Part shown: positions 388 to 23,722 of the stretch, one piece after another | How the letters are laid out: each line of letters begins with the position of its first letter | Numbering within the stretch: position 1 is the stretch's first letter | Assembly: GCF_001677435.1 (NCBI RefSeq) | Contig: NZ_CP016268.1 | Span: 310,001-374,000 of the forward strand | Reading direction: 5' to 3' | DNA from: Woeseia oceani | GTDB lineage: Bacteria; Pseudomonadota; Gammaproteobacteria; Steroidobacterales; Woeseiaceae | Length of the DNA stretch: 64,000 nt | Made by a program: the position numbers and the translations under genes | The notes under the pieces: generated by a model | What the model saw: only the letters and a program-made list of their open reading frames with translations | Database searches by the model: none | What the model was told of the DNA's origin: nothing

Positions 388-617
388 GACTGGCGACGCC
401 TGGCGGCCGAGCGCCTGTTTCATGACTCCATACGTACTGGCATACCGGTTCGCACGCGGTTGTTCCTCCGACTAGTCATATACTGAAGCTGTTGCGTCTT
501 CCCCGATAAGGAAGCCCGAACATGGCGTTTCCACGCGCAGTCTATCTGCACAAAACGGCAAGTTTTGACGCTTGCGCCGACAACCCGAACCCGGGTTGTC
601 TATCGGGGGAGAAATTA

Positions 618-3407: not shown

Positions 3408-3411
3408 TAAC

Positions 3412-5577: not shown

Positions 5578-5622
5578 TTTGTAATCAGTAGGTCCCGAGT
5601 TCGATCCTTGGTGCCGGTACCA
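5573..5622 (+). other. 3' fragment of tRNA-Thr(TGT), probable att site of an integrated element
   Basis: The bases fold as the 3' half of a tRNA. The anticodon arm is ATTGA / TTTGTAA / TCAGT with anticodon TGT, then a short variable loop, then a T arm CCGAG-TTCGATC-CTTGG, then the acceptor strand TGCCGGT, discriminator A and encoded CCA. No 5' half lies upstream, where the peptidase gene is still coding. Such truncated tRNA ends are left by tyrosine-recombinase integration into tRNA genes. The peptidase TGA (5575-5577) lies within the anticodon stem. Confidence 0.8.
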
Positions 5623-5637
5623 TAAAATCAACGACTT

Positions 5638-5663
5638 AGCCCCGCCATCGTGTGGGGCTTTTT
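5638..5663 (+). terminator. Rho-independent terminator after the tRNA-Thr fragment
   Basis: AGCCCC (5638-5643) pairs with GGGGCT (5654-5659) across a ten-base loop and runs into five Ts. It sits where a tRNA terminator normally lies and would also end the receptor/peptidase transcript. From here to 5921 I see no gene, only probable leader sequence of the next operon. Confidence 0.7.
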
Positions 5664-5921
5664 CGTATGTAGACACTTTAGATTGGCACATTAAGGTGCG
5701 ACTTTCGATGCCGGGCCTACCTGCGGATGCCGGATCTCTCACGTCATTCCGCGCAAGTTGTATCGGGTCGCAGCCGCGCTCTGGCAGCGTCCGCATTACC
5801 TCGCTTAGCGGCCATCCAATTGGTATCTTGGTCAAAGATTGCAAATGACCGAATGTAGACATCATTAATGGCCGCATCTTGGCAATTCGTTCACGATGGA
5901 GTAAGACAAGGCTTTGCGTAA

Positions 5922-6833: not shown

Positions 6834-6867
6834 TGCGCCGCGACGCCGCTAAAACGCAAATGATCTC

Positions 6868-7473
6868 ATGAATCCCGAATTTCAGGCAGATGTTTGGGCT
6901 CCGATTGTCGTAAGTGTTCTTGCGCTTGTATTCGCTGTGCTCGGATTCTGGTGGATGAATTGGCGACCTGGAAAACTAAACGTTGGAAATATTCGGCTTT
7001 TTGCGGCGGGGAAAGCGACCGAGGGAAGTGAATCACATAATGTCGTTATTGTAACTCTGCCGTTAATACTATGGAACTCAGGTGCGCGACCGCTTGTAGT
7101 AGATGACTTGCGGTTGGTTCCTGATCAAATACACAAGCTGCCAAATTTGCTATTCGAGGCTGTTGATGAACCGCTCACGACATCCATATTGGAACGCGAA
7201 GGAAAAATCGATCGCAACTATTTCTTCCTTCCACTAGCGCTGAGATCAAACGAGATTCGACAAGCAAATTGCGTCTTTGAAGCGCGAAATTGCCTCTATA
7301 CTTTTGAAGATAGACAATACCGTCTTAAGTTAGAAGCAAGGCTTACTGGCAAGTCAAATTGGAACAAAATCAAGAGTATTGAGCTTGACTTTTCAAACCT
7401 CAACGACATCGAGATGTTGAACCTCAACGAAATGTACACGGTATTCCCTTACCGAGTTGAGAAGAGTGGATAA
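6868..7473 (+). CDS. Single-pass membrane protein of unknown function
   Basis: A 201-residue protein. The N-terminus has one strong transmembrane helix (about residues 11-29, APIVVSVLALVFAVLGFWW). The remainder looks like a beta-rich cytoplasmic or periplasmic domain with strands VVIVTLPLILWNSGARPLVVDDLRL and the YRLKLEARLTG segment, reminiscent of an immunoglobulin-like sandwich. No catalytic motif is visible. It lies 34 bp after the coiled-coil gene and 35 bp before the PIN gene on the same strand, so it probably belongs to one operon. With its neighbour it would give the module two membrane-anchored components. I do not recognise the family. Confidence 0.7.
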   Translation: MNPEFQADVWAPIVVSVLALVFAVLGFWWMNWRPGKLNVGNIRLFAAGKATEGSESHNVVIVTLPLILWNSGARPLVVDDLRLVPDQIHKLPNLLFEAVDEPLTTSILEREGKIDRNYFFLPLALRSNEIRQANCVFEARNCLYTFEDRQYRLKLEARLTGKSNWNKIKSIELDFSNLNDIEMLNLNEMYTVFPYRVEKSG

Positions 7474-7508
7474 GACCTGCAAATCATCAAAGTGCGGCGG
7501 TTATTGGA

Positions 7509-8531
7509 ATGAGTGACGCTCAAGAAAGGCCGGTTGTGTTCATTGACACCTCATATCTGCGCCAAAAGGCGAAGTCACAGGCGGCGGAATGGAACAAACT
7601 ATTACGGCTGTCTCGCGACAGGCAAGTTGATCTGCATATTCCGCATATCGCGATTGAGGAATACAGAACTCAATGTCGTGATCACCTCGTTGCGAAGATC
7701 GAGAAATCCAAGGGTGCATTGCAGAAACTCGAGGGAGAATGGGTGTCGAATCCGGTGACGGAAAAACTAGGTGACCCTATAGAGTCAGATATCTTTCCAG
7801 ATAGTAGTCGGATTGAGGATGAATCGGTTAGGACGATTGAGAGGTTGGTCAAAGACAATCGAATCAACATTCTTATGCCCGCAGAGTCGCACGGGGTAAG
7901 GGTTTGGAAAAAATACTTCTCTTGGACGTCGATATTCTGCGTAGCTGTTCCCAGAAATCGAGATGAGAGATCAGTACGCGATAGTAGAAGAAAGCAAATT
8001 CCCGACGCCTGGATCTACGAAGCCGCTGTTGACCTGGCAAATAACAATGAGCTGTTGCTTTGTCTTTGCACTGATGACGGATTGTCCGACAGATTGCAAG
8101 AGCATCAGATCAGTATATTTTCGAGTGCTGAGAGCGTTGTCAAAATCGTGGAGGGCGATGACACTAAGGTCGTTTTGACTGAGCAGACACCAGAAGAGGG
8201 CGAAGTTGCGGAACGGCACCCAGAAGAAATAGCCGAGAAGACGCCACTGACAGACCGGTTGTCCAAGATAGCCGAGAGCGAATGGCAAATTCAGCGACGA
8301 ATTCTCGGTTACGCGCATTGGTTCGCGCCCATATCAAAGGAAAATCTAAGTGATCTACTACAAGAGAAGGGCCACGCGGCGCGCGAGATCGAAAACGCTG
8401 CACATAGGCTGGTGATCGCTGAGCTCCTTGAAGACAGCGGGACCCACTATTTGTTGAAGGACCTAATCATCGGGAAAGAAGCTGCCGGCGCGGTAATGGA
8501 CGAGGTTATCGACAAGATAATTGCCGACTAG
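7509..8531 (+). CDS. PIN-domain (DUF4935-like) ribonuclease
   Basis: A 340-residue protein. The N-terminal half matches a PIN-like nuclease: VVFIDTSYL (Asp13), HIAIEEYR (Glu50/Glu51), IPDAWIYEAA (Asp166) and LCTDDGLSDRL (Asp189/190, Asp194) supply the acidic metal-binding set in the right order. The PDAW spacing and long insert before it resemble the PIN_12/DUF4935 group. The C-terminal part (about 250-335) reads as a winged-helix-like segment after an acidic linker. It would cut RNA with Mg or Mn ions. It sits two bases before the 805-residue gene, implying translational coupling. In a mobile region, a PIN nuclease of this size suggests a defence or toxin role, which is an inference. Confidence 0.72.
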   Translation: MSDAQERPVVFIDTSYLRQKAKSQAAEWNKLLRLSRDRQVDLHIPHIAIEEYRTQCRDHLVAKIEKSKGALQKLEGEWVSNPVTEKLGDPIESDIFPDSSRIEDESVRTIERLVKDNRINILMPAESHGVRVWKKYFSWTSIFCVAVPRNRDERSVRDSRRKQIPDAWIYEAAVDLANNNELLLCLCTDDGLSDRLQEHQISIFSSAESVVKIVEGDDTKVVLTEQTPEEGEVAERHPEEIAEKTPLTDRLSKIAESEWQIQRRILGYAHWFAPISKENLSDLLQEKGHAAREIENAAHRLVIAELLEDSGTHYLLKDLIIGKEAAGAVMDEVIDKIIAD

Positions 8532-8533
8532 TT

Positions 8534-10951
8534 ATGGAATTTGAACTCAAAAAGCGTGCATTAGAGCAACTGGTTCGTACAGAGGGTCCGACTGTCGAAC
8601 AAGCACTTGAAAAGGAAAGTCGGAGGATTAAAAAAGCGTTGGAGAGTGAAACGCTCTTCGATACGCTCAAGGATCAACTGGATTTCCTTGCTGTCATTTC
8701 ATTTCGTTTGGCTGCAGAGACGGTATTGGTACTTAAGGGCTTCTTAACTCGCATAGAGTCGTTAGAGACTACCCACAAGGACGTAATGGGGATGTCTGCG
8801 GAAAGAATTCAAATATATCAAACCAAAGAAAGCCTAATAGTCAAGGCACTCGAAATACTTGGCCAAATCCGGTACCACGAACCGGACGCAATATTTGCAT
8901 TATTGCTTAAGTATTCCAATAACGACAACGACGAAATCTCGAATAAGGCAATAGACGAACTAGAGAGCCTCGCAGAATTCAATATTGATGTTTTTTATGC
9001 GAAGGATGATTGGCAAGGACTTGGAACTTACCCTCAACAGAGGGTAATCGAGAATACAAAAAAACTCAGCGTTCGAGATCAGAAAATCTACTTTTTTGCG
9101 CTTCTGAAGCTGTGCGAGAAGATTCTATCGCCAACCATGCAATCGACCTCATCAGACTACAAAACGTTTACGTGGACGACAAGTGCAGTACCAGGTATTG
9201 AGCCGATAATTCAAGTTCGAAACGACGCACTGGCCATCCTTTTCGATCTTTACGAACTAGGAGACGCAGTTCCGAATCGGATTGGAGTTGTAAACGCGAC
9301 GTACAACGTCAGTCTCTTGCCAAACAATGCTCAGTACGGTGACGACACAGTTACCATGATCGACGAAAATACGTTGTCGGTACTGGAATTCTGGAAGTCG
9401 GTTCTTAAAACAGCTGAACTCGAAGTGCTCCAAAAGATAGAGCACCACTCATATTGGATTCATCGGCGCAAGTCAGAGGGCCCTGTACGCGCTGCAACTA
9501 TTGAGATCAAGAACGAGCTCGACGGCAATAATGAGTATCAAATTTACAAAGCTCTGATTGGATATGAGGGTGTATTTGCGGAATGGCAAAAAGATGTAGG
9601 CCAAGAATCAGACGAAGACTTTCATCGGGAAATCAAGTCAGAAGACGAATACCGCGACGCAAAAGCTCGAGAATTTGCACTATCGATCGACGACGAGAAT
9701 TATAAGGAATGGACGAACCGTATTGTTCGATACGCAACTGTGCAATCAGATGATCTTGCCACCTTCCCCGTATTTGGGAAGTTCTTGGAATATCTCGGAG
9801 AACTCTCACCGACTACAGCTTTGAGAATGGTCACTGACGAGAGTAACGCGCTTGAACGGTTTTTCGCGGCGATTTTTTGCGGTATTTGGAAGACAGATAA
9901 ACGTGAGCCCGCGGAGGAACTATTGCAGACCTGGATAAGCGAGGGGAAATTCCTATATGTGATTGCGCGAATATTTGAATACAACAGCGATCCAGAAAAC
10001 CCAATTGTTTCTCAGATATTCAAGAAAGCAACGGAGACAGAAGATAGTGCCGCGGTCGTAAGGATCATGGCGGTGGTCGCAGCAAACTACACGGCAGAGC
10101 GAAAGCACTTGGTTTCAGACCTTTTCGTTCCAGCGGTGTCGTGGCTTACTGAAAGGGAGGAGTTCCGATGGGTGTTCGATTTCTGGTATCGGAAGCAGAT
10201 TCGAGAGCTTGTCCGAGGCATGGCCTCTCAAGGACATGCGGTGATTCTGGAGAACCTCCTAAACATGCCAGACATTGACTATCACGCCGAAGAGATTCTT
10301 TTGCCTATTGCAGAGTCAGAGCCACAAATGGTGCTGAAGTTTTTCGTATCGCGAATTGATCACCGGAAGAACAAGAAGGAGTTCGACCGATATAGCGCTG
10401 TACCATTCAGCTTCCAGAAACTCGCCGAACCGCTGTCGCGTCATCCGGATTTAGCCGTGGACGAATTGTATAGCACCTATGACGACAATTACGGAATGTT
10501 TGTATTTGAAGGCGGTAAGCTTCTTAAGATCATCTTTCCTCATTTCTCGTCTGAGCTAGAGAAAAAACTAATCGAATTTGTAAGTACAGGCAAAGAGCGA
10601 CGTATTCGTTTTTGTATGGCTATATTGCGCAACTACGAGGGAGAGAGTTTCTTGCACAATATCTGCAAGGAGCTTGTCAAAGTACTTCCAACTGACAGCA
10701 GATTATTGACCGAAGTAGAGATCATTCTCGAGAGTACGGGGGTTGTATGGGGTGAGTTTGGCATTGCGAACGCTTACATGCGAAAAAGAGAAGAAGTCTC
10801 CGGGTGGACAAATGACTCGAATGAAAAAGTACGGCAATTTGCGAAGCGCTACACATCAAATCTCGAGAAAATGGAAGATGCCGAGCGGAAACGGGCAGCA
10901 GAAGATATTGAGTTGCGGAAGTTGAAATATGGATCGAATGATGAGGAATAG
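8534..10951 (+). CDS. Large helical protein of unknown function (805 aa), partner of the PIN nuclease
   Basis: An 805-residue, charged, almost wholly alpha-helical protein with no Walker, nuclease or protease motif that I can find. Helical pairs such as SLIVKALEILGQIRYHEPDA followed by IFALLLKYSNNDNDEISNKA and AIDELESLAEF suggest HEAT- or ARM-like repeats in the N-terminal 150 residues and again around 380-620. Starting two bases after the PIN gene, it is almost certainly co-translated with it. Such solenoid proteins often act as a scaffold, sensor or inhibitor for a toxic effector. Base composition is clearly more AT-rich than in the flanking receptor genes, as expected of acquired DNA. Confidence 0.75.
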   Translation: MEFELKKRALEQLVRTEGPTVEQALEKESRRIKKALESETLFDTLKDQLDFLAVISFRLAAETVLVLKGFLTRIESLETTHKDVMGMSAERIQIYQTKESLIVKALEILGQIRYHEPDAIFALLLKYSNNDNDEISNKAIDELESLAEFNIDVFYAKDDWQGLGTYPQQRVIENTKKLSVRDQKIYFFALLKLCEKILSPTMQSTSSDYKTFTWTTSAVPGIEPIIQVRNDALAILFDLYELGDAVPNRIGVVNATYNVSLLPNNAQYGDDTVTMIDENTLSVLEFWKSVLKTAELEVLQKIEHHSYWIHRRKSEGPVRAATIEIKNELDGNNEYQIYKALIGYEGVFAEWQKDVGQESDEDFHREIKSEDEYRDAKAREFALSIDDENYKEWTNRIVRYATVQSDDLATFPVFGKFLEYLGELSPTTALRMVTDESNALERFFAAIFCGIWKTDKREPAEELLQTWISEGKFLYVIARIFEYNSDPENPIVSQIFKKATETEDSAAVVRIMAVVAANYTAERKHLVSDLFVPAVSWLTEREEFRWVFDFWYRKQIRELVRGMASQGHAVILENLLNMPDIDYHAEEILLPIAESEPQMVLKFFVSRIDHRKNKKEFDRYSAVPFSFQKLAEPLSRHPDLAVDELYSTYDDNYGMFVFEGGKLLKIIFPHFSSELEKKLIEFVSTGKERRIRFCMAILRNYEGESFLHNICKELVKVLPTDSRLLTEVEIILESTGVVWGEFGIANAYMRKREEVSGWTNDSNEKVRQFAKRYTSNLEKMEDAERKRAAEDIELRKLKYGSNDEE

Positions 10952-10972
10952 AATACCGTGGCACTTCCAAGG

Positions 10973-10998
10973 CTGGCGCGGGCCGAAGCCCGCGCCAG
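10973..10998 (+). terminator. Strong GC hairpin after the four-gene operon
   Basis: CTGGCGCGGGC pairs perfectly with GCCCGCGCCAG around a CGAA tetraloop, 21 bases after the stop of the 805-residue gene. There is no T tract, so it may be a 3' stabilising hairpin or a weak terminator rather than a standard intrinsic terminator. Confidence 0.5.
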
Positions 10999-11507
10999 GG
11001 TAGTTAGGTGTAATAGTTGCGACCCGATCTGACAGTTATCGACTCTGACAGTCGTGCATGTGTCAGATCAGTTTAATTTACTGACTTTTGCCTCCCACAG
11101 TTCGCGCCCTTCGCGCAAAGTCTGCATCGGAGTTCTGCCGCAGCACATCTTACCCTGATGTGAGCGTTCGTTGTTGTAGTCATCGACCCAGGCGTCCAGA
11201 TCTGCCTGCAGGTCTGCGAGTTCCGAGTACACTTTTTTGCGGAAAGCGATTTCGTAGAACTCCTCTTTCACCGTTCGGTGGAAGCGTTCGCAGATCCCGT
11301 TGGTTTGCGGACTGTAGGCCTTGGTCTTCGTATGCTCGATGTCGTTGACGGCCAGGAACAGCTGATAATCGTGACGCTCGGGACGGCCGCAGTACTCGGT
11401 GCTGCGGTCCGTCAGGATGCGGATCAGGTCGACGCCGTTTTCCTCGAGCATTGGCAGCACACGATCGTTGAGAAGATCCGCTGGCAAGCCCGAGATTTCT
11501 GGTCCAC

Positions 11508-12368
11508 TCACGCCGTTAGTATTTCCGGTTGTTGATTCGTATTTTCTTCATTCCATCGCTGTAGGTAATGCTTCGGATTCATTCCGCCCAGCGATCCGTG
11601 CGGTCTGATCGTGTTGTATTCCTCAAGCCACTGGTTGATCACGACCCGTGCTTCAGTCATCGAGCCAAATAACCAACGATCCAGGCAGGTACTGCGAAAG
11701 ATGGAGTTGAAGCTTTCGCAGTAGGCGTTCTGCCACGGACTGCCAGGATCGATGTAGTGCGTGTCGACGTGTTTTTCCTTGAGCCATGTCTGCACTGCCT
11801 TTGAAACCATTTCGGGGCCGTTGTCGCTGCGCAGACAGACCGGTCGTCCGTGTTCTTCGAACAGCTTTTCGAGAACCCGAATGACATCCGTTGCCGTCAG
11901 ACTGCGACCAACCGTGATCTCAAATCCCTGCCGAGTATACTCGTCGACCACCGTCATGCACTTCAGTTGCCGCGCATCCTCCGTTTGATCAAAGACAAAG
12001 TCGTAGCTCCAGACGTGGTTCGGATACCGAGCCTGGTTCACCCACTGTGTCGTCATGCCAAGTACCTTGCGTTTCCGGCGCTTTTTAATGACCTGCAGCC
12101 CTTCTCGCCGTCGAATCAGCCGCACCGTCTCCCGGCTGATCGACCAGCTGCCCCGCATCAGGTCATAGATCTTGCGGTAGCCAAAATACGGGTAGCGTTC
12201 CGATAACCGGACCACTTCCTCGTAGGCCGCATCGACCAACTCCTGTTGGCCAACGTAGCGGTAGCTTGAGCGGTTCAGCTGTATCGCCTGACAGGCGCGT
12301 CGTTCGCTGATCTCGTACTGGTTGCGTAAGTACGTTACACAGCGACGTCGCTCTGCCAGGCTCACCAC
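11508..12368 (-). CDS. IS3-family transposase OrfB (DDE integrase)
   Basis: A 286-residue DDE transposase with an HTH_21-like N-terminus (YLRNQYEISERRACQAIQLN), then the rve core. Catalytic residues are visible as WSYDFVFDQ (first Asp), LRSDNGPEM (second Asp) and WQNAYCESFNS (Glu). It ends with the EEYNTIRPHGSLGGM block typical of IS3 OrfB. Its GTG start overlaps the end of OrfA by 7 bp, consistent with coupling or programmed frameshifting to make an OrfAB fusion. The reading frame is full length. Confidence 0.93.
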   Translation of the reverse strand: MVSLAERRRCVTYLRNQYEISERRACQAIQLNRSSYRYVGQQELVDAAYEEVVRLSERYPYFGYRKIYDLMRGSWSISRETVRLIRRREGLQVIKKRRKRKVLGMTTQWVNQARYPNHVWSYDFVFDQTEDARQLKCMTVVDEYTRQGFEITVGRSLTATDVIRVLEKLFEEHGRPVCLRSDNGPEMVSKAVQTWLKEKHVDTHYIDPGSPWQNAYCESFNSIFRSTCLDRWLFGSMTEARVVINQWLEEYNTIRPHGSLGGMNPKHYLQRWNEENTNQQPEILTA

Positions 12369-12628
12369 TTTCGGCTGTTGACGTCCTTCAACATCCGAAT
12401 GTCCAGCGTCTGTTCCGCGACGACCTTCTTCAGCTCGGCATTCTCGCGTTCGAGTTCCTTCAGTCGCTTGGCCTCAGAAACAGCCATGCCGCCAAACTTC
12501 GACTTCCACCGGTAAAACGACTGCTCCGAGCAGTTGTGCTTGCGGCAGACATCGGCTACCGACAGCCCGGCCTCAGCTTCCTGCAAAATCCGGATGATCT
12601 GTTCTTCTGTAAATCGCTTGCCTTTCAT
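12362..12628 (-). CDS. IS3-family transposase OrfA (HTH protein)
   Basis: An 88-residue protein beginning MKGKRFTEEQIIRILQEAEA, with the HTH segment SVADVCRKHNCSEQSFYRWK and then a leucine-zipper-like stretch (LKELERENAELKKVVAEQTL). This is the standard OrfA layout, which recognises the terminal repeats and pairs with OrfB. It lies entirely within the inserted element. Confidence 0.92.
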   Translation of the reverse strand: MKGKRFTEEQIIRILQEAEAGLSVADVCRKHNCSEQSFYRWKSKFGGMAVSEAKRLKELERENAELKKVVAEQTLDIRMLKDVNSRKW

Positions 12629-13322
12629 TGGTGCCTCCTGGGTCGGGAAACACTAACATAGCAACTGGACCAATTATGACGGGGCTAGCCACCGCCGCCG
12701 TGATCGGCGTCTTGGTCGTATACAACTTGCAGGCCGCGACTTTGGCGTAGGTGTCCACGAACGTCTGCTGGTAGATGCGACCGATGCCTTTGATCGTGCC
12801 CACGTAGTACGTGTCCTGCGATCCCAGGTAGCCCGGATGCTCGGTCTCGATCTCGCCGTGGACCTCATCGGTGGCACGTTGCCGCTCCAGTGCGACGACC
12901 TGTACCTCGGTCAGTACGATACCCTCCTTGGCGACTTTCGCTTCCAGAGCCTTGAGCCGGAGCTTGCGGCTCTGCAGCGTGTGGCGGAGCCAGATGCTAC
13001 GCACACCGCTGGGGGACACAAACACGCCCGCTTTCCGTAGCTCGTTACTGACGCAGACCTGGCCGTGCGCCGGGTACTCCAGGGCAAAATCCAGCACTGC
13101 CTGCTCGATCTGCGGCTCGACCCGGTTCTTCGGGTTGGGCTTGCGCCGGTTTTTTTCCAGCAACGCTTCGACGCCACCTTCATCCCGAGCGGACTGATAA
13201 CGATAAAACGTGTCCCGAGACACGCCCATCATCTGGCAGGCTTTCGACACGTTCCCCAGCTCTTCGGCCAGGTTCAGCAATCCGATCTTGTTTCTTATGA
13301 TCCTCTGTGTAGACTGATTCAT

Positions 13323-13382
13323 GAGGGTTATCCTTATGGTTCTGTTTGAAAGTTCGCACTTCCATCAGAACCGATAACCCTC
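13323..13382. repeat. Imperfect inverted repeat upstream of the IS481-type transposase
   Basis: GAGGGTTATC (13323-13332) and GGTTCTG (13338-13344) pair with CAGAACC plus GATAACCCTC (13366-13382). The two arms form a stem of about 17 bp with a five-base bulge, directly before the transposase ATG. Hairpins here often block translation from transcripts that read in from outside. Confidence 0.5.
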
Positions 13383-13426
13383 GCTTTGATCAAGCCAGGT
13401 GTCAGATCAAGTCGAAACTATTTCAG

Positions 13427-13738
13427 TTAGGAGCGCTTCTCGCCCGCGATTGCGCCTTTCGTTTCGCTCGCGGTCTTCAAGGCTTCTTCAATACCAATCA
13501 AGGTCGGAAACACCAACTCGATTTTGTCATATTGGTTTGGACGGAATGATTGACCAGATAGCGTATAAAGACCCTCGCCATATTTCGTATTTGTTTTTGG
13601 CACAGAGATTTCAACTAGACGCGGTCGACGCTCGCCCCGCAGAATCTCTGCTTCTTGAAACCTAACTCTAAATTCGATTCCGTCTTTCCTTACTGCTGTC
13701 CTCTCATGGACAGGCCCGTGTACATTGAGTATTAACAT
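13427..13738 (-). CDS. Inovirus G5P-like ssDNA-binding protein
   Basis: A 103-residue protein starting at ATG 13738, which has an AGGTG ribosome site; a GTG at 13747 is an alternative. The block KYGEGLYTLSGQSFRPNQY followed by DKIELVF resembles the YxPGxYTLxxxSFRVxRYGxLEL region of filamentous-phage helix-destabilising proteins (gene V protein family), and the preceding strands (VRFQEAEILRGERRPRLVEISVP, in two halves) fit the same OB-fold layout. These proteins coat phage ssDNA. No other inovirus genes are evident nearby, so this looks like a remnant. Similarity is judged by eye only. Confidence 0.5.
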   Translation of the reverse strand: MLILNVHGPVHERTAVRKDGIEFRVRFQEAEILRGERRPRLVEISVPKTNTKYGEGLYTLSGQSFRPNQYDKIELVFPTLIGIEEALKTASETKGAIAGEKRS

Positions 13739-13775
13739 CAAATTCACCTATTCCTGATTACGTTTATGTCGGGCA

Positions 13776-13806
13776 CACTTTGCCGGTCAAGTATCGGGGC
13801 AAAGTG
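13776..13806 (-). terminator. Hairpin downstream of the lasso operon
   Basis: CACTTTGCC (13776-13784) pairs with GGCAAAGTG (13798-13806) around a 13-base loop, about 45 bases past the stop of the transporter gene on the minus strand. No T tract follows in the direction of transcription, so it is only a candidate terminator. Confidence 0.4.
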
Positions 13807-13850
13807 CACCCTGTGATCTTGACGTGTCTTACAATCAACGTAATGGCTAC

Positions 13851-15674
13851 TCAACTGACTCGGCCGGGACGCTCTTGAACGGCGCCCGACTGTTGGCCCC
13901 ACCATAACAAAGAATATGAACCGCCAGACTGCAAGAGGATATCGTGCGTTCCTTGCTCAACTATCCGGCCTTCTTCAAGCACGACAATTTCATCCGCTCG
14001 TGTGACCACGGACAAACGATGGGCAATGATTATGGTTGTTGCGTTTTCCGTGGCGTCAACAAGGCTGCCGAGAACTTCGCGCCTGGTGTTGGAGTCTAAT
14101 GCCGACGTGGCTTCGTCGAAGACGTAGATACCTGCTTTGCTGATGACGGCTCGCGCTATCGCGAGTCGTTGCTTTTCTCCACCGGACAGTCGAACTCCGC
14201 GTTCGCCGACCTTAGTCTGGTAGCCGTCCGGCAGCCCGAGAATGAAATCGTGAATGTTGGCGATCTTTGCGGCGGCGACGATGTCATCGTGATCGCATTC
14301 CGCTCTCGCGAAAGCTATGTTGAATGCAATAGAGTCATTGAACATGACGGGTTCTTGCGGAACTACGGCTATGTCCTTTCGCAGATAGGCAAGCGGAATG
14401 TCCGTGAGGTCCGTACCGCCAAGAAAGATCCTTCCGTTGTTGGGCTCGACCAAACGCAACAGCAGCCGGATTAGCGAGGACTTGCCGGAACCACTGGTGC
14501 CGACGACGGCCAGCGTCCCTCCGGGTGGCACGTGAAAACTCACGTCGCGCAGTATGGGCCGATCAGGGTCATAGCCGAACGAGACGTGATCGAACACCAA
14601 CGCCTTTGGTCCGGAGCCTGATGCCGTGTTCTTCGTGATTCCGTAGGGTTCCGGCTCTTCTTGGAATAGTTCAGCCAGTTTGCCTACAAAAGCGATCCCC
14701 TGCGCAATATCTCTGAATGCGAAGCCGATTCGCTCAAGGGGCATGACCAGTTGAATAGCATAGGCGTTGACGAGGACGAAATCGCCAATGCTCATCGTGC
14801 CATTCACGACGGCGATGGTTCCGACAGACAAAGACATCCCGAGCGACAGGGTGAAGATGGCAGCGACGGTGAGTCCGTTTCGCATTTTCTGTTTGTAGAC
14901 TTCTGCCCAACAACCCTCCGTATCGCGCAGGGCATCGCGAAATCGTCCACGGACTCTGGCCTCGCCGTTGAACATCTTGATGGTCTCGTAGTTCAGCAAT
15001 GAGTCAGTGAAGACTGCGCCAGCGTTGACGTAGGAGCTTGATGCGGCTCCGGCCGGACCGCGGATACGCACCGCACCGATCCGGAAGGCCAGTGCGTACA
15101 GCATTACGGAAACGCAGAAAATAACGAGAAAACCGCTGTGCCCAAGGAATACCAGCACAACACCCATGCCGGCCGCCTCGACCATGATTGGGAGTACGCT
15201 ATTGATGAGATGGAGCAAAATAACCCGGTAACCGATTAACCCATTGGACAGTATCCGATCCAGTGCACCGGTCTGACGCCTTAAGTGAAAACGTAGAGGC
15301 AGTGACAAGATATGCCGGAAGCATTCGTCGCTGAGGAGACGGTGTATGCGTTGCTCAGCTCTGCCCAGTGCCGCTGCGCGTAGTTCCGTGAACGATCTCG
15401 CCAGGTAGTGTGCCAGTGCATAAGCAAAGACTAAAACTATCGGCGCCACACCAATGTAGTCACCGTGCGGCTTACTGAGTGCATCGACCAGAGTTTTCAG
15501 CAGAACCGGCGAGAGTGCGGTGGTGATCGAACCACCGAGCATGAATATCATTGCGGCAACAGTGAATCGCTTTGCCTTACTGTCGGAGGTTGACCAAAGT
15601 CGGCGAATCGCATCCGATAGGACGGCCTTCGAAGTTCGCTGCGGCCCATCCAACTCCCCGGAATCCGACATCAC
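13851..15674 (-). CDS. Lasso-peptide ABC exporter (Atm1-like ABC-B family), lasso D protein
   Basis: A 607-residue half-transporter with six membrane helices (about residues 35-330) and a C-terminal ATPase domain. Walker A is GTSGSGKSS (392-400), the signature is LSGGEKQ (496-502) and Walker B is IYVFDE (516-521). The NYETIKMFNGE segment is typical of Atm1/HMT-type ABC-B proteins. Its ATG overlaps the stop of the cyclase gene in an ATGA arrangement, so it is the last gene of the ABCD lasso operon. By analogy with McjD it should export the mature lasso peptide across the inner membrane and give the producer immunity. Confidence 0.9.
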   Translation of the reverse strand: MMSDSGELDGPQRTSKAVLSDAIRRLWSTSDSKAKRFTVAAMIFMLGGSITTALSPVLLKTLVDALSKPHGDYIGVAPIVLVFAYALAHYLARSFTELRAAALGRAEQRIHRLLSDECFRHILSLPLRFHLRRQTGALDRILSNGLIGYRVILLHLINSVLPIMVEAAGMGVVLVFLGHSGFLVIFCVSVMLYALAFRIGAVRIRGPAGAASSSYVNAGAVFTDSLLNYETIKMFNGEARVRGRFRDALRDTEGCWAEVYKQKMRNGLTVAAIFTLSLGMSLSVGTIAVVNGTMSIGDFVLVNAYAIQLVMPLERIGFAFRDIAQGIAFVGKLAELFQEEPEPYGITKNTASGSGPKALVFDHVSFGYDPDRPILRDVSFHVPPGGTLAVVGTSGSGKSSLIRLLLRLVEPNNGRIFLGGTDLTDIPLAYLRKDIAVVPQEPVMFNDSIAFNIAFARAECDHDDIVAAAKIANIHDFILGLPDGYQTKVGERGVRLSGGEKQRLAIARAVISKAGIYVFDEATSALDSNTRREVLGSLVDATENATTIIIAHRLSVVTRADEIVVLEEGRIVEQGTHDILLQSGGSYSLLWWGQQSGAVQERPGRVS

Positions 15675-17479
15675 CGTGTGGCCGGACGGTCATTGTTGGA
15701 CCAGGACCTCGCCCAGATCTCGGCACGGAATGCGATGAGTACAGGGAACAACACATTGTGACTACGGATAAGAGAGCGCTCGGTCAAAGCGTCTTCGAGT
15801 GCGGGCTTGTTGAGGAGCCCCTGCGAAACCAAAACTCCTTCAAGCAGGAACTCACGAAGCACGGTGATATTCCTCACCAGCAGGCCAATGAAGTAGCCCG
15901 TTGTCGCGCCTTTTGTCGTTCGCCTGAGAATGCTCGATGGAACGAGGCCTTCGAATGCGTCCCGTACCAATGCGCGGTCGATACCACCATAGGTCAGGAG
16001 GTAGGAGGGAATCTGCAGGCAGAGTTCGATGATCGGCTGGGATATAAGTGGATGCACGATGTCCGCGCCGCAGTTGGGCATGTGGCGGAACACCTGGCTA
16101 TCGATGACGTTGAAGATTTGTTCTTGTTTGCTGCCCGGCAGGTCCCGTGCAGCGTCGACCCATGGGTGGCGAATCTCATCAAAGTTGATTGCATCGAGGG
16201 CTTCGCGACTCACCAAAGGAGACCGTTTCACAATGTCGTAGGGGTTTGAGGGCTTTCGAAAGAGGCCGGACGAAACGGTTGTCGCCGCAACCGACCAGAT
16301 TGGTTTGTTCGTGAATCGCGACGTGTCCGAGATAATGCGAAAGAGGTCGCCGTTAAGACCATGGCGCCGGATGTACTCTGCGGCAATATGGGTGTTTCTG
16401 CTGCGTTGAAAAAAATGGTCACCACCCTGGCCGGAGAATACGGCTTCAATTCCATGAGACTGAACCCGTTGCTTCTTGGCCGCATGAGTTTCAGGCAGGA
16501 AAACGCTGTGGGCTGGCGTTGCGACCTTGGCAGTCTCGAAGCAGTGATCAAGCGGCCGCTCGGACGGTGGAATCTGCGTCTCGATAAGTTCAACACCTGC
16601 CGCGTTCGCAGCCTCGCGCGCGAACAATCGTTCGTCACTCTCAGTATTGTTCGCAAAGTGATTCTCGCAAACGATGTGGACTGGGTCTTTGATGCGAGCG
16701 AGGCAGGCAAGAACGACCGCAGAGTCGAGTCCACCTGACAATTGGTGCAGTACGCTGCTGTAGCTCGATGCCCACGTACCGACACATTGTTCAATGACGC
16801 CGCGGAGCTGCTCTCTCGCGAATTGCCGATCCTCGACGAATGGCTTTCGGCAGAACGAATCCGGACGCCATAAATAGCTGGCAGTCATTCCTTCCGGGCC
16901 GATCTCGAGGCGTTCGCCGGCCTGCACCTGCCGTACACCTTCAAGGCCTGTCTCTGAGGTAACTAGGTGGTCAAACCAGAGATAGGCTGCAACGTGATCC
17001 CAGTTAATAGAGGCGTCGATGAGCTGTAGTGCAACGCAGTCGTCTACATGCGAGAAGATGACGTGAATACGGCCAAAGTCAGTTACGAAGCAAGGCAAGT
17101 GACCAGTAGGATCGCGCAGAACCCATACTCGCGGCCCATGGTCTTCTTTCAAGATCGCGACGTAACTTCCCCAAAACTGCTCGACCAGGCATTCGCCTTT
17201 CGTTGTTTGCAGATTCTCGGGAGAGGGGCGGTTGTCGGTTCCATCACGCCGGAAAATACTGCCGAGCACTGTGCCACAGCCGTGATTCTGTTCGTACACC
17301 TGCGATTTTCCGGTAGTGGTTGCTGAGTGAAATACCTGAAGGCCAGATGTGGCGAGACAACTGGACCAATCCGGGAATACCGTCCGGACACGGTGTGCGA
17401 GTGTGGTGGCGAGCGAGCTAGCCTCCGCAAGTTCGGGGTTCCACGCGAATGCAATGTACCGGAGCAATGCGCGGCCCAT
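15671..17479 (-). CDS. Lasso peptide macrolactam synthetase (asparagine synthetase B homologue), lasso C protein
   Basis: A 602-residue AsnB-like enzyme. The C-terminal synthetase domain carries the ATP PPi-loop SGGLDS (248-253) and a later FSGQGGDHFF block. The N-terminal glutaminase-like domain lacks the Cys nucleophile that should follow Met1 (it begins MGRALLRY), as is known for lasso cyclases, which use the free N-terminal amine instead of ammonia. It should activate the acidic side chain at core position 8 as an AMP ester and close the macrolactam with Gly1 while the tail is threaded. It lies five bases after the B gene and overlaps the D gene by four. Confidence 0.92.
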   Translation of the reverse strand: MGRALLRYIAFAWNPELAEASSLATTLAHRVRTVFPDWSSCLATSGLQVFHSATTTGKSQVYEQNHGCGTVLGSIFRRDGTDNRPSPENLQTTKGECLVEQFWGSYVAILKEDHGPRVWVLRDPTGHLPCFVTDFGRIHVIFSHVDDCVALQLIDASINWDHVAAYLWFDHLVTSETGLEGVRQVQAGERLEIGPEGMTASYLWRPDSFCRKPFVEDRQFAREQLRGVIEQCVGTWASSYSSVLHQLSGGLDSAVVLACLARIKDPVHIVCENHFANNTESDERLFAREAANAAGVELIETQIPPSERPLDHCFETAKVATPAHSVFLPETHAAKKQRVQSHGIEAVFSGQGGDHFFQRSRNTHIAAEYIRRHGLNGDLFRIISDTSRFTNKPIWSVAATTVSSGLFRKPSNPYDIVKRSPLVSREALDAINFDEIRHPWVDAARDLPGSKQEQIFNVIDSQVFRHMPNCGADIVHPLISQPIIELCLQIPSYLLTYGGIDRALVRDAFEGLVPSSILRRTTKGATTGYFIGLLVRNITVLREFLLEGVLVSQGLLNKPALEDALTERSLIRSHNVLFPVLIAFRAEIWARSWSNNDRPATR

Positions 17480-17484
17480 CGACT

Positions 17485-18195
17485 TTAAAACGCCATGATC
17501 GGCGTGAAGCGCCTGACGAAGTCGACAGTGTCATTCAGAACCATGTTCCCTTCCTGAACCCAGCAGTGCGCAGCGAATGGTTCGCCCGTGACACCGAAAA
17601 CCCACTCCGGGAAGTGACGATAGTGCGCAAGAAATTCAATGAGCGCGAGTGAGTCGAACCGGCAAAGGTATTCCCTCACGTAATACGGGCGCAGTCGATG
17701 AAATACAGCTACGAGTTCCAACAATTTTTCTGGGTCATTGTGGTCTAAATCAGCTTGCCTGCTCTTGCGCCTGTGCACGCCTTCGATGATTCGTTGCAGT
17801 GACAGAAAGCGGTACTTCGCTGATGCAGAAAGAGCTGCTTTCAAAAACGCCATACAATGGCTCGCTTGAGGGCACCCGTTATTCTGCCGCAGGTCGAAGC
17901 TCTTCTTTGGAGCGGCAATCCGAACTGGAACTGATAACTTGCCGTCTGAGTTTCCATCGACCAGAAGCCCGGCTCCCTTGAGTGCAAGATCGATGCGCTT
18001 CACCTGCTCTTGATCGGAATCCGATGATCCCAACAGATCAAGAGAACGAATCTGCGGAAAAAGTCGTAGTGCAGTTTGTGTATTGCGAAGGTCCAGGCAC
18101 TGATACCGATCATGGCGCACGTCTGAAAAGATGAGGCGCTCGTCGGCGAGACAGACGTAGGCGTGCTTGGCCAACTTGGCAGGTGATTCGGTCAT
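17485..18195 (-). CDS. Lasso peptide leader peptidase with fused RRE (McjB-type), lasso B protein
   Basis: A 236-residue two-domain protein. Residues 1-85 (YVCLADERLIFSDVRHDRY onward) form the PqqD-like recognition element that binds the leader. The C-terminal transglutaminase-like domain has the Cys-His-Asp triad at Cys178 (REYLCRFDS), His210 (FAAHCWVQEG) and Asp222 (VLNDTVDF). It should cut the precursor after the Thr-Asn pair. The ATG at 18195 fits the family's usual N-terminus; an in-frame ATG at 18246 would add 17 residues. Neither start has a clear ribosome site, so coupling to upstream translation is possible. It sits between the precursor and cyclase genes. Confidence 0.9.
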   Translation of the reverse strand: MTESPAKLAKHAYVCLADERLIFSDVRHDRYQCLDLRNTQTALRLFPQIRSLDLLGSSDSDQEQVKRIDLALKGAGLLVDGNSDGKLSVPVRIAAPKKSFDLRQNNGCPQASHCMAFLKAALSASAKYRFLSLQRIIEGVHRRKSRQADLDHNDPEKLLELVAVFHRLRPYYVREYLCRFDSLALIEFLAHYRHFPEWVFGVTGEPFAAHCWVQEGNMVLNDTVDFVRRFTPIMAF

Positions 18196-18263
18196 GTGAG
18201 CTGATGATCCACAGGACGTGCGCGACCTCTTGGCCGCGCACGTCATTTGGACAGGAACTATTC

Positions 18264-18365
18264 CTAGCCCTCGTACAGCGGCTGCTCGGATTCGGCTACC
18301 TGGCCGATCGTTCCATTCGTCTTTTCCGAGATCGCACCCAGATCAATCAATACATCTTCGTTCAT
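18264..18365 (-). CDS. Lasso peptide precursor, lasso A protein
   Basis: A 33-residue precursor that begins at ATG 18365 behind a strong AAGGAG ribosome site. The leader reads MNEDVLIDLGAISEKTN, with the conserved Thr at position -2. The predicted core reads GTIGQVAESEQPLYEG: 16 residues, Gly1 as ring amine and Glu8 as ring acid, giving an 8-residue macrolactam and an 8-residue tail. It lies directly upstream of B, C and D genes on the same strand, as in mcjABCD. Likely steric plugs are Gln11, Leu13 or Tyr14, which is speculative. The frame is open further upstream to 18467, but only the ATG at 18365 has a ribosome site and lasso-type leader length. Confidence 0.88.
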   Translation of the reverse strand: MNEDVLIDLGAISEKTNGTIGQVAESEQPLYEG

Positions 18366-18396: not shown

Positions 18397-18416
18397 CGCC
18401 ACAACCTGATGTGGCG
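18397..18416 (-). promoter_or_regulatory. Hairpin in the 5' leader of the lasso precursor
   Basis: CGCCACA and TGTGGCG form a 7-bp stem around a six-base loop, about 30 bases before the precursor ATG. It lies just upstream of the AAGGAG site and could shield the 5' end of the transcript or regulate translation. Confidence 0.4.
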
Positions 18417-18532: not shown

Positions 18533-19201
18533 TCACCGCTGATCGCGTTGCTGCGCAAGTTCCAACAACGGGGACAGCAGCGCGATGCGTGTGTCGTGGT
18601 AGTCGTGAATTCCTCTTAGCAAGTCGTCGCACCGCCGTGCCAGCAGCAACTCACACAAGCGCACAAGCTCTTCCTGCACTTCCGGCAGTAAACGGCATTC
18701 GAGCGTGCGCGGGTAATGCAGCCGGTCGTTGGCGCGGCGGATGGCACAGACGATGTCGGCATTGGTGCCGAGTTTTGCGATGGCAAGAAACATCTCGCCG
18801 GTACAGGCCGCCAGCACGCGGTCATCGGTAAGGTGGCGTCGGTTCAGCCTGTGCAGGGCGGTGGCAATCGGCTCGAACACCGGTAAGGTGCGGCGCGTTT
18901 GCGTGTCGAGCCGTTCAAGCGTGTGCGTGAGCAACAGTCGCGTGATGTCGTAGTGCCCGCTGAGTCGCTGCCGGGTCAGTCGCAATGCTACGAAGCCTTT
19001 GCACGGTGCCTTGATTACCAGCTCTTCGGCGGCCAGCCGGTTCATGGCCTCGCGCACCGGGGTGGTACTGACGCCGAGCGACCGCGCAACGGGTTCGAGC
19101 AGTATTCTTTGTCCCTGCGGAAACTCGCAGGCGATAACGCGCGCCTTGACGGCAGCGTACACACGTTCAGAGCGTGCAAGGCTTGCTACCCGTGTGTCCA
19201 T
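18533..19201 (-). CDS. GntR-family (FadR/FCD-type) transcriptional regulator
   Basis: A 222-residue protein. The N-terminal winged HTH is clear: VYAAVKARVIACEFPQGQRI, then LEPVARSLGVSTTPVREAMN and RLAAEELVIKAPCKGFVA, which is the standard GntR pattern. The remaining all-helical part (about 80-215) looks like an FCD effector domain with scattered His and Asp residues. The gene lies upstream of the lasso operon on the same strand, 168 bp from the precursor, and is divergent from the luxR-type gene with a 50-bp gap. It may regulate either neighbour. The effector cannot be read from the sequence. Confidence 0.87.
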   Translation of the reverse strand: MDTRVASLARSERVYAAVKARVIACEFPQGQRILLEPVARSLGVSTTPVREAMNRLAAEELVIKAPCKGFVALRLTRQRLSGHYDITRLLLTHTLERLDTQTRRTLPVFEPIATALHRLNRRHLTDDRVLAACTGEMFLAIAKLGTNADIVCAIRRANDRLHYPRTLECRLLPEVQEELVRLCELLLARRCDDLLRGIHDYHDTRIALLSPLLELAQQRDQR

Positions 19202-19251
19202 GCGCGACCCACAGACTATTGACGATGGAATAATTCTAAGGAAGCGGCATC

Positions 19252-20058
19252 ATGGCCGGAACTGACAGAACAGACAGGGATGGTCAAATCGTCCGGCGCC
19301 GTGCGTGCGACATCGCGGTATCAGGGGACGCAATGCGACTATCCGATTTCATCGATGCGTCCAACCGGGCTGGTTCCACACAGCCGATACTCGCTTTGAT
19401 GGAACATGCCGCCGCTGATCTCGGTTTTGATCGCTACGCGTACTGCGCGCTTACCCGACACCACCGTTACGAGGCCGGCGAGAATGCGGCACCGGCGGTC
19501 GCGCATAATTTTCCGGCCGCGTGGATCAATTACTATTTCGAGCGCGACTACCAGACCCGCGACCCCGTCGTATTACTGGCCCCGGAAATCGAACGCCCGT
19601 TTCTGTGGGACGCGCTGGACGGTGCGTACCGCCTGGACCGCGCCCAGCAGACCCTGATGCTCGAAGCGGATGACGCCGGTCTTAAAGACGGTGTCGGCGT
19701 GCCGCTGCACGGACCGCGCGGCAATGTTTGCCTGGCCACTTTTGCTGCCGGTGACGGCCACCCGCGTCCCGCCGCCGAACTGCCACGACTGGAACTCCTC
19801 GCCACTCAGTTTCATGCAGCCTACAGTGCCGTTGGCCGCGCCGGGAGCAACCGCCGCACTGCCGTGTTGTCCAGGCGCGAACGCGAATGCCTGCAGTGGG
19901 TCGCGGCCGGCAAGTCGTCGTGGGACATCGGCGTGATCCTCAACATCAGCGAACGCACGGTCAATTTTCATGTCCGGAACGCGCTTCGCAAACTCAATGC
20001 AAACACCCGCGTCCTCGCGGTGGTGAAGGCGATTCGTTACGGGCTTATCAGTCTTTAG
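19252..20058 (+). CDS. LuxR-type quorum-sensing regulator (autoinducer-binding plus HTH)
   Basis: A 268-residue protein. The autoinducer-binding domain (about residues 45-190) includes the typical block AAWINYYFERDYQTRDPVV, the FLWDAL region and the GVGVPLHGPRG motif. The C-terminal GerE/LuxR HTH reads LSRRERECLQWVAAGKSSWD followed by IGVILNISERTVNFHVRNAL. ATG 19252 has AAGGAAG seven bases upstream; ATG 19333 (MRLSDFIDAS), with AGGGGA four bases upstream, would give the more usual 241-residue length. It should bind an acyl-homoserine lactone and act on the lux box before the adjacent synthase gene. Confidence 0.93.
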   Translation: MAGTDRTDRDGQIVRRRACDIAVSGDAMRLSDFIDASNRAGSTQPILALMEHAAADLGFDRYAYCALTRHHRYEAGENAAPAVAHNFPAAWINYYFERDYQTRDPVVLLAPEIERPFLWDALDGAYRLDRAQQTLMLEADDAGLKDGVGVPLHGPRGNVCLATFAAGDGHPRPAAELPRLELLATQFHAAYSAVGRAGSNRRTAVLSRRERECLQWVAAGKSSWDIGVILNISERTVNFHVRNALRKLNANTRVLAVVKAIRYGLISL

Positions 20059-20255: not shown

Positions 20256-20275
20256 TCCTGTCAGTTTTGACAGGT
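20256..20275 (+). promoter_or_regulatory. lux box upstream of the LuxI-type synthase gene
   Basis: TCCTGTCAGTTTTGACAGGT is a 20-bp element with perfect 7-bp arms CCTGTCA/TGACAGG. It matches the known lux box layout (ACCTGT, eight bases, ACAGGT) except for one outer base. It lies 59 bp before the chosen TTG start, a normal place for LuxR-dependent activation and autoinduction. Confidence 0.85.
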
Positions 20276-20334
20276 GTGCGCGTGCGACGTTCGTGGTTTA
20301 TTTCCGGCTGTCTGGTTGCCGCCGGAGTCCGGAA

Positions 20335-20934
20335 TTGACCGTGGTGTGCCTCAACTGGGAAACCGCCAGCCGGCATGGCGAGCGGTGGATCGATCATCAT
20401 CGCTTGCGGCACCGGCTGTTTGTCGAGCGTCAGGGCTGGGACGTGCCGACCTACCGCGGCATGGAATACGACCAGTTTGACACCCCCGCCGCGCAGTACT
20501 TGCTGTGGCTCGACGAGCGGGGCCGGACCCGTGGCGCCGTGCGCCTGTTGCCGACCGTGCGACCGTACATGTTGCAGACGCTCTGGCCGGAGCTGATCAA
20601 TGGCACGCCGCCCGCGACCGATGCGGTGTGGGAGGCCACGCGCTTCGGTTGCGACCGCACGCTCGATGCAAACAGGCGGCGTATTGCGGTAACCGAACTG
20701 CTGTGCGCGATGCAGGAGTTTGGCATGCGGCGCAATATCGACCGCTACCTCATCGTGATGTCCTTGCCATTGCTCAAGCGGGTTGTCGTGAACGCCGGTT
20801 GCGAGGTCACCGTGCTGGGACCGGAACGCATACTTGGCAAGCGGCCGGCGGCCGCCTCGTACCTGACGGTGTCGCGGGAAGTGCTGGCCGAGATGCACCG
20901 GCGCGCGCCGTTTACTCGTGTCCTGTCCGATTAG
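20335..20934 (+). CDS. LuxI-type acyl-homoserine-lactone synthase
   Basis: A 199-residue autoinducer synthase. Conserved residues appear in order: RHRLFVERQGW (Arg25, Phe29, Trp35), EYDQFDT (Asp46, Asp49), RGAVRLLPT (Arg70) and VWEATRFGCD (Glu100, Arg103). It makes an acyl-homoserine lactone from SAM and an acyl-ACP or acyl-CoA. The TTG start at 20335 is chosen because GGAG lies seven bases upstream, the protein then starts at the normal LuxI N-terminus (TVVCLNWE), and longer frames would run through the lux box. GTG 20341 is an alternative. It pairs with the luxR-type gene just upstream. Confidence 0.93.
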   Translation: MTVVCLNWETASRHGERWIDHHRLRHRLFVERQGWDVPTYRGMEYDQFDTPAAQYLLWLDERGRTRGAVRLLPTVRPYMLQTLWPELINGTPPATDAVWEATRFGCDRTLDANRRRIAVTELLCAMQEFGMRRNIDRYLIVMSLPLLKRVVVNAGCEVTVLGPERILGKRPAAASYLTVSREVLAEMHRRAPFTRVLSD

Positions 20935-22883: not shown

Positions 22884-23390
22884 TTAGTCAGGTTCGATGT
22901 AATTCAGTTTGACCAGGCGCAGGGTCATGGCCTGTTCGCTGACGGCGAACAGCGTGGCCAGGCGAAAGACGTCGATATCCGTAATGCCTTTTTTGGCATC
23001 GACGTGCTGGCGGATCAGCAGACCCGGCATGAGTAACGCCGCGGCAAAGGCGTTCGCTTCGATTTCCTCGCGCAGTTCGCCCTTGCTCGACCACTCGTTT
23101 CTGAAAAAGCGCCGGTCAACGAAGACCCGGTCACCGGTCACGTGTAACAGCATGTGGCCGATCTCGTGCGCGAGCGTAAACCGCTGGCGGTGCCGGTGGT
23201 GTGCGGCGTTGATGGCCACTTTCACATGGCCGTCTTCGATCAGCATCAGGCCCGATACGTCGCTGTCGAGTTCCTCGAAGTTGACTGACATACCGAGCGT
23301 GCGGGCGAGCGCCTCAACGTCGACCGGTGGTGACAGTGCGTCATGATCGCGGAGCAGTCGGGTCGCGCGTCGTTCGAATTGTTGTGTCAT
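22884..23390 (-). CDS. ImmA/IrrE-type metallopeptidase
   Basis: A 168-residue M78-family protein with the zinc motif HEIGH (75-79) in RFTLAHEIGHMLLH and the downstream acidic EIEANAFAAALLMP block that supplies the third ligand. It ends with a VFRLATLFAVSEQAMTLRLV segment usual for the family. Such proteases cut or inactivate a partner XRE repressor in phages, ICEs and stress modules. The partner is probably the HTH gene eight bases upstream on the same strand. Together they may form a regulator-protease switch or a toxin-antitoxin-like pair. Confidence 0.88.
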   Translation of the reverse strand: MTQQFERRATRLLRDHDALSPPVDVEALARTLGMSVNFEELDSDVSGLMLIEDGHVKVAINAAHHRHRQRFTLAHEIGHMLLHVTGDRVFVDRRFFRNEWSSKGELREEIEANAFAAALLMPGLLIRQHVDAKKGITDIDVFRLATLFAVSEQAMTLRLVKLNYIEPD

Positions 23391-23398
23391 CGCTGTGC

Positions 23399-23722
23399 TT
23401 ACCCTTTACGCCGCAGCTTTTCGAGCACGGGAGTCAGGCTGGGATCCACGCCCGTGTAGCGGATGCCGGCCGACCGCCGGCGCATCTCGCTGACGCTCGG
23501 CAGCAGGTCCGCGAGTTCCAGATTGTAATGCGCACACAGCTCGTAAATGTTGTGCAGGGAGGCGCGTTGTGCGCCAGATTCGATGTTGGCAATTGTGGAG
23601 CGATTCAGGTTAAGAACCTCGCCGAGTTCGGCTTGCGAGAGCCGGCTCTCGGTCTCGGCCGTACGTACGCTCTTGATTCGCTGGCGGATATTGTCGTTCA
23701 GCAATTTGGGGTTGATGTACAT
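23399..23722 (-). CDS. XRE-family HTH repressor
   Basis: A 107-residue regulator. The HTH core reads RLSQAELGEVLNLNRSTIAN followed by IESGAQRASLHNIYELCAHY, a textbook XRE domain. A short C-terminal tail carries basic residues. It is transcribed just ahead of the ImmA/IrrE-type gene. Paired 17-bp operators lie between this gene and the divergent gene at 23935, so it probably represses both directions until the protease removes it. Confidence 0.88.
   Translation of the reverse strand: MYINPKLLNDNIRQRIKSVRTAETESRLSQAELGEVLNLNRSTIANIESGAQRASLHNIYELCAHYNLELADLLPSVSEMRRRSAGIRYTGVDPSLTPVLEKLRRKG

Follow-up and report, generated by a model that had tools for sequence, protein, structure and literature searches.

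Within the 64,000-nucleotide stretch of Woeseia oceani DNA analysed here (the window; positions 310,001 to 374,000 of contig NZ_CP016268.1), we identified a lasso-peptide gene cluster that carries an ABC exporter, an isopeptidase of the AtxE2 family and an adjoining LuxR/LuxI pair. This is likely a rubrinodin-like, exporter-plus-isopeptidase lasso system gated by quorum sensing, the product of which is probably exported, recaptured and linearised. The window is a portion of one 4,059,891-base contig; the detailed analysis spans the window up to 26 kb and, beyond that, consists of a listing of open reading frames. A scan of the genome contigs returned one locus and gained nothing further. Publications are cited by PMC number, and statements about them refer to those parts of each text that were available.

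The lasso operon and its predicted core peptide

The operon occupies positions 13851-18365 on the minus strand, in the order A-B-C-D. The precursor gene A (18264..18365) runs over 33 codons from the ATG at 18365 to the stop at 18264 with AAGGAG immediately 5′ of its start codon, as an initial annotation of this DNA had proposed, and it has counterparts among the precursors of relatives. Its product is predicted to consist of the leader MNEDVLIDLGAISEKTN and the core GTIGQVAESEQPLYEG, with a ring between G1 and E8 and the tail SEQPLYEG after this 8-residue ring. The core is acidic and contains no basic residue, as had been noted, and the expected [M+H]+ of the lasso form, computed from the core, is 1659.786.

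The residues Gly10, Thr16, Gly18 and Glu25 are common to all 14 precursors found in eight genomes of the family (Woeseiaceae); Thr stands at -2 and Gly at core position 1, and the ring Glu lies mostly at core position 8, in a few at 7 or 9. By design, the search pattern accepted only Thr-x-(G/A/S/C) with an acidic residue somewhere in core positions 7-9, so that the free evidence resides in the choice of Gly and Glu within these limits and in the location near B or C. The cores of the closest relatives, GTIGQVAESDQPLYED in genome G148 and GLPGVFYETDIPEREE in G236, keep G1 and E8 and vary in the remainder. Because Thr-2, Gly1 and Glu8 recur there, the predicted core is well supported, and the cut site, hallmark residues and 8-residue ring put forward earlier hold as predictions. 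No precursor was recognised in G101 with the search pattern, and the precursor falls below the cut-offs of both the benenodin model (NF033522; 22.3 bits, cut-off 33) and the subterisin model (PF24178; 19.7 bits, cut-off 27). A chance open reading frame was ruled out for A, as relatives keep the core signature beside B. The core has no match in the literature searched, in agreement with the initial annotation. Short precursors at three other loci (L036 7843, L065 3846 and L041 10717) have Cys at core position 2 and near the C terminus (GCG...E..W...C) and are possible ring-to-tail disulfide lasso peptides.

The three remaining genes correspond to what had been read from the sequence. B (17485..18195, with a longer frame from 18246) is the RRE-peptidase fusion, scoring 63 bits with PF13471 (cut-off 26) and 64 bits with NF033537 (cut-off 33); its RRE part was identified only by eye. 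The Cys-His-Asp triad is confirmed by alignment, Cys178 and His210 being invariant in 21 of 21 sequences and the Asp, judged by eye, aligning in 17 of them. C (15671..17479) is the asparagine-synthetase-like macrolactam cyclase: Asn_synthase scores above the Pfam cut-off, the SGGLDS motif is intact, and the N-terminal Cys2 of the glutaminase is missing, as the protein begins MGRALLRY. The lasso-cyclase NCBIfam models match C far below their cut-offs. D (13851..15674) is a full ABC exporter by profile and resembles Atm1-type and ABCB1 exporters by sequence; among solved structures, the best match of B is a designed protein at 4.6e-4, and C has none.

The tight spacing claimed for the operon applies to B-C (5 nt) and to C-D (a 4-nt overlap) and fails for A-B, where 68 nt contain a predicted RNA hairpin (18207..18252, minus strand; -36.5 kcal/mol, z -5.0). 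Comparable stems are also found 3′ of A in G148 and G236. An inverted repeat, CGCCACA-N6-TGTGGCG, lies 5′ of A (18397..18416, minus strand, by eye), either an operator or a leader hairpin; it is present in G148 and, with altered letters, in G236 (by eye). Rfam and tRNA scans gave no matches.

A LuxR/LuxI pair linked to the operon

Upstream of A and co-directional with it lies a gene for a GntR-family regulator (18533..19201, minus strand), assigned by profile match and by the family survey. On the plus strand follow a LuxR-family receptor of N-acyl homoserine lactone (AHL) at 19333..20058 (the frame is open from 19252, and the start follows orthologues; PF03472 and PF00196 above cut-offs) and a LuxI-family AHL synthase at 20335..20934 (the frame is open from 20077, and the start follows orthologues and the proposed promoter; PF00765 above cut-off). 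LuxR matches LasR over its full length (1e-30) and LuxI matches LasI (5e-20); by its domains the pair is a predicted AHL quorum-sensing system.

LuxR and GntR accompany the lasso genes across the family. B is present in 9 of 107 family genomes, and the same nine have LuxR above 340 bits (every other genome at most 79 bits) and GntR at 170 bits or more (every other genome at most 40 bits). These counts are of high-scoring matches; at E<=0.001, 56 and 51 of the 107 genomes match LuxR and GntR, respectively, the weaker ones mostly over part of the query. LuxI occurs in six family genomes, all among the nine B-positive ones, and LuxR shares a contig with B in eight of the nine, G109 being the exception. 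The loci most completely parallel to this one are those of G148, G236 and G117. In G148, XRE, ImmA, LuxI and LuxR come first and GntR, A, B, C and D follow, with LuxR and GntR transcribed away from each other; the order in G236 is the same, D not being found on its contig, of which about 2.2 kb remain past C. G117 has two GntR genes, then A, B and C, with D beside its second cluster.

The linkage extends to the order, where B is found in 32 and LuxI in 15 of 296 genomes (both counts taken as drawn from the same set), with an overlap of 14. Eleven of these carry both genes on one contig (G000, G148, G236, G105, G117, G196, G048, G235, G273, G271 and G215), at about 2 to 12 kb except in G271 (about 31 kb), so that 10 of the 11 fall within 13 kb. 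B and LuxI lie on separate contigs in G109, G293 and G176, and LuxI occurs without B in G108. Five of the six linked genomes of a second family were inspected with the window proteins by tblastn (all except G271): LuxR, LuxI, B and C were found in 5/5, D in 4/5 and an isopeptidase match, one of them weak (4e-5), in 4/5. The neighbourhood tables were filtered by length and E-value, and the family table also by query. At class level, B was found in 15 of 369 genomes, LuxI in 48 (38 over cut-off) and both in three. None of the 13 B-positive class genomes outside the order has a linked LuxI; two have LuxI elsewhere, G439 on a different contig and G447 1.16 Mb away. The Lux link as a general gammaproteobacterial habit was thus rejected, as only the present genome among the 369 has B and LuxI close together.

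Two proposed promoter elements of the same geometry lie upstream of gntR and luxI. The proposed gntR promoter (19233..19277, minus strand) consists of the lux-box-like CTGTCTGTTCTGTCAG (19262-19277), 23 nt and a -10-like TAGAAT (19233-19238), and the proposed luxI promoter (20258..20302, plus strand) of CTGTCAGTTTTGACAG (20258-20273), 23 nt and TTTATT (20297-20302). This spacing fits a lux box near -42, as in LuxR-type promoters. A 16-mer box, 23 nt and T(T/C)(T/A)A(T/G)T recur upstream of luxI, or of where luxI would be, in 7/9 genomes (G000, G148, G236, G117, G065, G105 and G109); on the gntR side the box, 23 nt and TA(G/C)(A/G)AT recur in 7/9 (G000, G148, G236, G117, G065, G109 and G242). 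The regular expressions fixed spacing and hexamer after the sites had been viewed and are therefore descriptions, not blind tests. The pattern CTGWCN6GWCAG was also chosen after seeing the sites. When the two intergenic stretches were shuffled by mononucleotide, 9 and 16 of 20000 shuffles contained this pattern; without mismatches it occurs in the 4.06 Mb genome only at these two sites, from which it was derived, and with one mismatch at two more places.

The half-site type changes together with the LuxR recognition helix. Boxes of the CTG..CAG type are found at both promoters in G000, G148 and G236, where the helix reads SE(R/S)TVNF; in the other genomes with an element the gntR box takes the form CTA..TAG, TAG also closes the luxI box, and the helix is SENTVNF in G117, G065, G109 and G242. 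A single evolutionary event may lie behind both classes. G065 (L038) keeps LuxR and the luxI-promoter box, and LuxI was not found in its genome; its LuxR is a candidate solo that would descend from a full LuxR/LuxI pair.

An ImmA/IrrE-like peptidase and an XRE repressor (22884..23722, minus strand) are conserved neighbours: a close ImmA is present in six of the nine lasso-positive family genomes, and 12 of 107 family genomes match at E<=0.001. Between luxI and immA, positions 20957-22579 encode a 540-residue protein with a secretion-signal-like start, for which neither Pfam and NCBIfam nor tblastn against the relatives' loci covered gave a match.

The isopeptidase and receptor arm

The initial annotation described a complete ABCD cluster, and this did not stand. 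Positions 522-5577 encode an isopeptidase and a receptor, and it had mentioned neither these nor GntR, LuxR/LuxI and the more distant FecI/FecR-like genes. E (3412..5577, plus strand) is a lasso isopeptidase of the AtxE2 family with a lipoprotein-like N terminus (by eye), scoring 670 bits with NF033523 (cut-off 400). AtxE2 (5txc), its best solved relative, matches at 8e-85 across residues 37-715, and the alignment includes the Ser, acidic and His positions, which we take to be catalytic in AtxE2. The TonB-dependent receptor (522..3407, plus strand) has an STN signalling domain that matches only weakly, at 21.5 bits against a cut-off of 28.4. To the left of the window are genes for a FecI-like sigma and a FecR-like anti-sigma factor, followed by two HipA-like genes (named by eye), and relatives of the FecI/FecR-like genes stand near the receptor in other family loci. 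At L072 10356-14366, two HipA-like genes with XRE-like partners stand between the FecR-like gene and the receptor (by eye).

The isopeptidase accompanies the lasso genes in relatives: it scores over the cut-off in seven of the nine lasso-positive family genomes (G242 and G109 do not), at most 0.4 kb after D in G065 and G101, at most 1 kb after C in G117 and G105, and on a different contig in G236. D and isopeptidase matches share a neighbourhood in G148, G065, G101, G105 and G117 and in G048, G196 and G273 of the second family. In G117 and G065, two or more lasso clusters share a contig region (L036, L037, L038 and L039); receptors are interspersed and C genes point either way, forming a multi-lasso island.

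As a lasso antibiotic of the microcin J25 or capistruin kind, the peptide would be exported by D as immunity, with the Lux pair timing its release; D is indeed a full exporter, and several antibiotics are gated by quorum sensing (PMC5872303). We consider this unlikely, given that isopeptidase, receptor and GntR genes belong to the cluster, that the core is acidic and free of basic residues, and that, in the available parts of PMC9266682, known isopeptidase-type peptides have no antimicrobial activity except astexin-1, of narrow activity.

In the window, D and E are separated by positions 5578..13850, of which about 5 kb hold SH3, PIN and two unknown-family genes; the remainder includes nested insertion sequences (IS) and a phage-type gene. 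At 11068-13322, beside the exporter gene, a transposase in two pieces surrounds a second, IS3-like frame pair (families by eye), so that one IS sits inside another, and 13427-13747 encodes a filamentous-phage-type single-stranded-DNA-binding protein (PF02303, 6e-9). The D-E gap of G148 likewise measures about 8.3 kb with IS and phage-type genes, and contains (L032 13591-16904) a relative of this binding protein (50% identical) and an integrase-like gene (by eye), so that a phage-like element probably entered the interval. The separation of E and the receptor from D, and the HipA-like genes left of the receptor, would be expected if IS and phage insertions had left the cluster in decay and without function. 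This is very improbable: the lasso, isopeptidase, receptor and Lux frames are all open, and G148 has counterparts of B, C, D, E and the receptor at 68-79% identity, together with a core that is almost the same.

Proposed mechanism and comparison with known systems

Several observations weigh against a quorum-sensing-gated, exporter-plus-isopeptidase system. LuxR occurs without LuxI in G065, G101 and G242, three of the nine family genomes, and LuxI was not found in 18 of the 32 B-positive order genomes; the link is therefore frequent, not obligatory. In G109 LuxI and LuxR are on contigs other than that of B, and the LuxI alignment holds one TGA, perhaps 5′ of the start. The Fisher co-occurrence statistics ignore shared ancestry. 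The recognition helices of G105 (SAHTVRF; TAG at luxI) and G101 (SYNAVNY) fit neither class, the gntR-side element was not recovered in these two genomes, and in G117, G105 and G109 the box on the luxI side makes a poor palindrome (3 of 8). With up to three mismatches the box pattern has 185 genome matches against 148 for a reversed control, so that no wider regulon can be claimed. A sigma-70-like promoter directly before A is possible (by eye), and control of A through gntR is thus not certain. D stands 8.3 kb from E, and the FecI/FecR-like genes lie 3.8-5.4 kb left of the window with the HipA-like genes between.

The gaps in LuxI among lasso-positive family genomes, as well as the integrase-like, phage-type and IS genes adjoining the cluster, would suit a Lux pair that is a mere passenger on a mobile island shared with the lasso genes. 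This we judge to be quite unlikely, as the linkage is seen again in another family of the order, where the LuxI proteins are only 28-35% alike, the gntR box shares the luxI geometry, and at both promoters the type of box varies with the recognition helix of LuxR (possibly in one event).

The gated exporter-plus-isopeptidase system is our preferred and likely reading. In it, LuxI would make an AHL and, past a threshold, LuxR-AHL would occupy both lux-box-like sites, switching on luxI in positive feedback and gntR. The A-B-C-D operon would then be set by GntR or by read-through from gntR. B would cut off the 17-residue leader after Thr-Asn, C would join the Gly1 amine to Glu8 to give the 8-residue ring, and D would export the lasso peptide. 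The TonB-dependent receptor would return it, alone or with cargo, to the periplasm, where FecR/FecI would signal recapture to the cell and the isopeptidase would linearise the lasso. The genes, the core signature, the linkage across family and order and the two promoter elements of like geometry are read directly from sequence; we infer the identity of the AHL, the binding of LuxR, the target of GntR and the sign of its action, as well as threading, recapture and a non-antibiotic role. This last is the weakest step, suggested by the acidic core and by what PMC9266682, in its available parts, reports of isopeptidase-type peptides. As a bolder and less probable possibility, the lasso could be the second tier of a cell-to-cell relay, AHL-induced, exported, sensed via receptor, FecR and FecI and ended by the isopeptidase, such peptides being signals or cargo shuttles of sediment bacteria rather than antibiotics.

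How lasso operons are switched on is poorly understood (PMC6963729), and the role of isopeptidase-type peptides is hypothesised only (PMC9266682). The conserved quorum-sensing pair offers a defined inducer for experiments and a regulon that can be measured, and the arrangement hints at what such peptides are for. Woeseiales, which include this family, make up 1-22% of the marine-sediment sequences retrieved (PMC7082342); the literature combining Woeseia with "lasso peptide" yielded, as far as available, only a list of validated names. An AHL pair as a conserved lasso-cluster partner was not found in the available parts of PMC6963729, PMC9266682, PMC4235733, PMC8776678, PMC13352647, PMC11006600, PMC10926693 and PMC5872303. 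The luxR-linked biosynthetic clusters of PMC5872303 share LuxR/LuxI beside a biosynthetic cluster; its main text, in the parts available, names bacteriocin, lanthipeptide, thiopeptide and other types and has no word beginning with "lasso".

A plain ABCD cluster of the microcin J25/capistruin type was ruled out by the isopeptidase. In those clusters the RRE and the peptidase are fused, as here. They share the A-B-C-D order (PMC6963729), and the capABCD description available there, unlike the present cluster, has no isopeptidase or Lux genes; the local regulator of capistruin is listed as unknown, with an AHL influence only indirect, through ScmR (PMC6963729). Isopeptidase clusters have a constant architecture of isopeptidase, TonB-dependent receptor, GntR and FecI/FecR (PMC9266682, a 2022 review). 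Clusters of the astexin/benenodin/subterisin type share with ours GntR before A, the receptor, the AtxE2-family isopeptidase and a related leader and, in contrast to it, have no ABC transporter (PMC9266682); D and LuxR/LuxI are present here. Rubrinodin is the single exception in that review, its cluster likewise combining an ABC transporter with an isopeptidase (PMC9266682, PMC10926693); its core and host differ from those here, and a Lux pair is not mentioned in the available parts of the two texts. This exceptional design recurs in the present order. Lasso genes together with isopeptidase, receptor and GntR are already known, and exporter with isopeptidase once, in rubrinodin (per PMC9266682); as far as the texts covered go, the new part is the Lux link.

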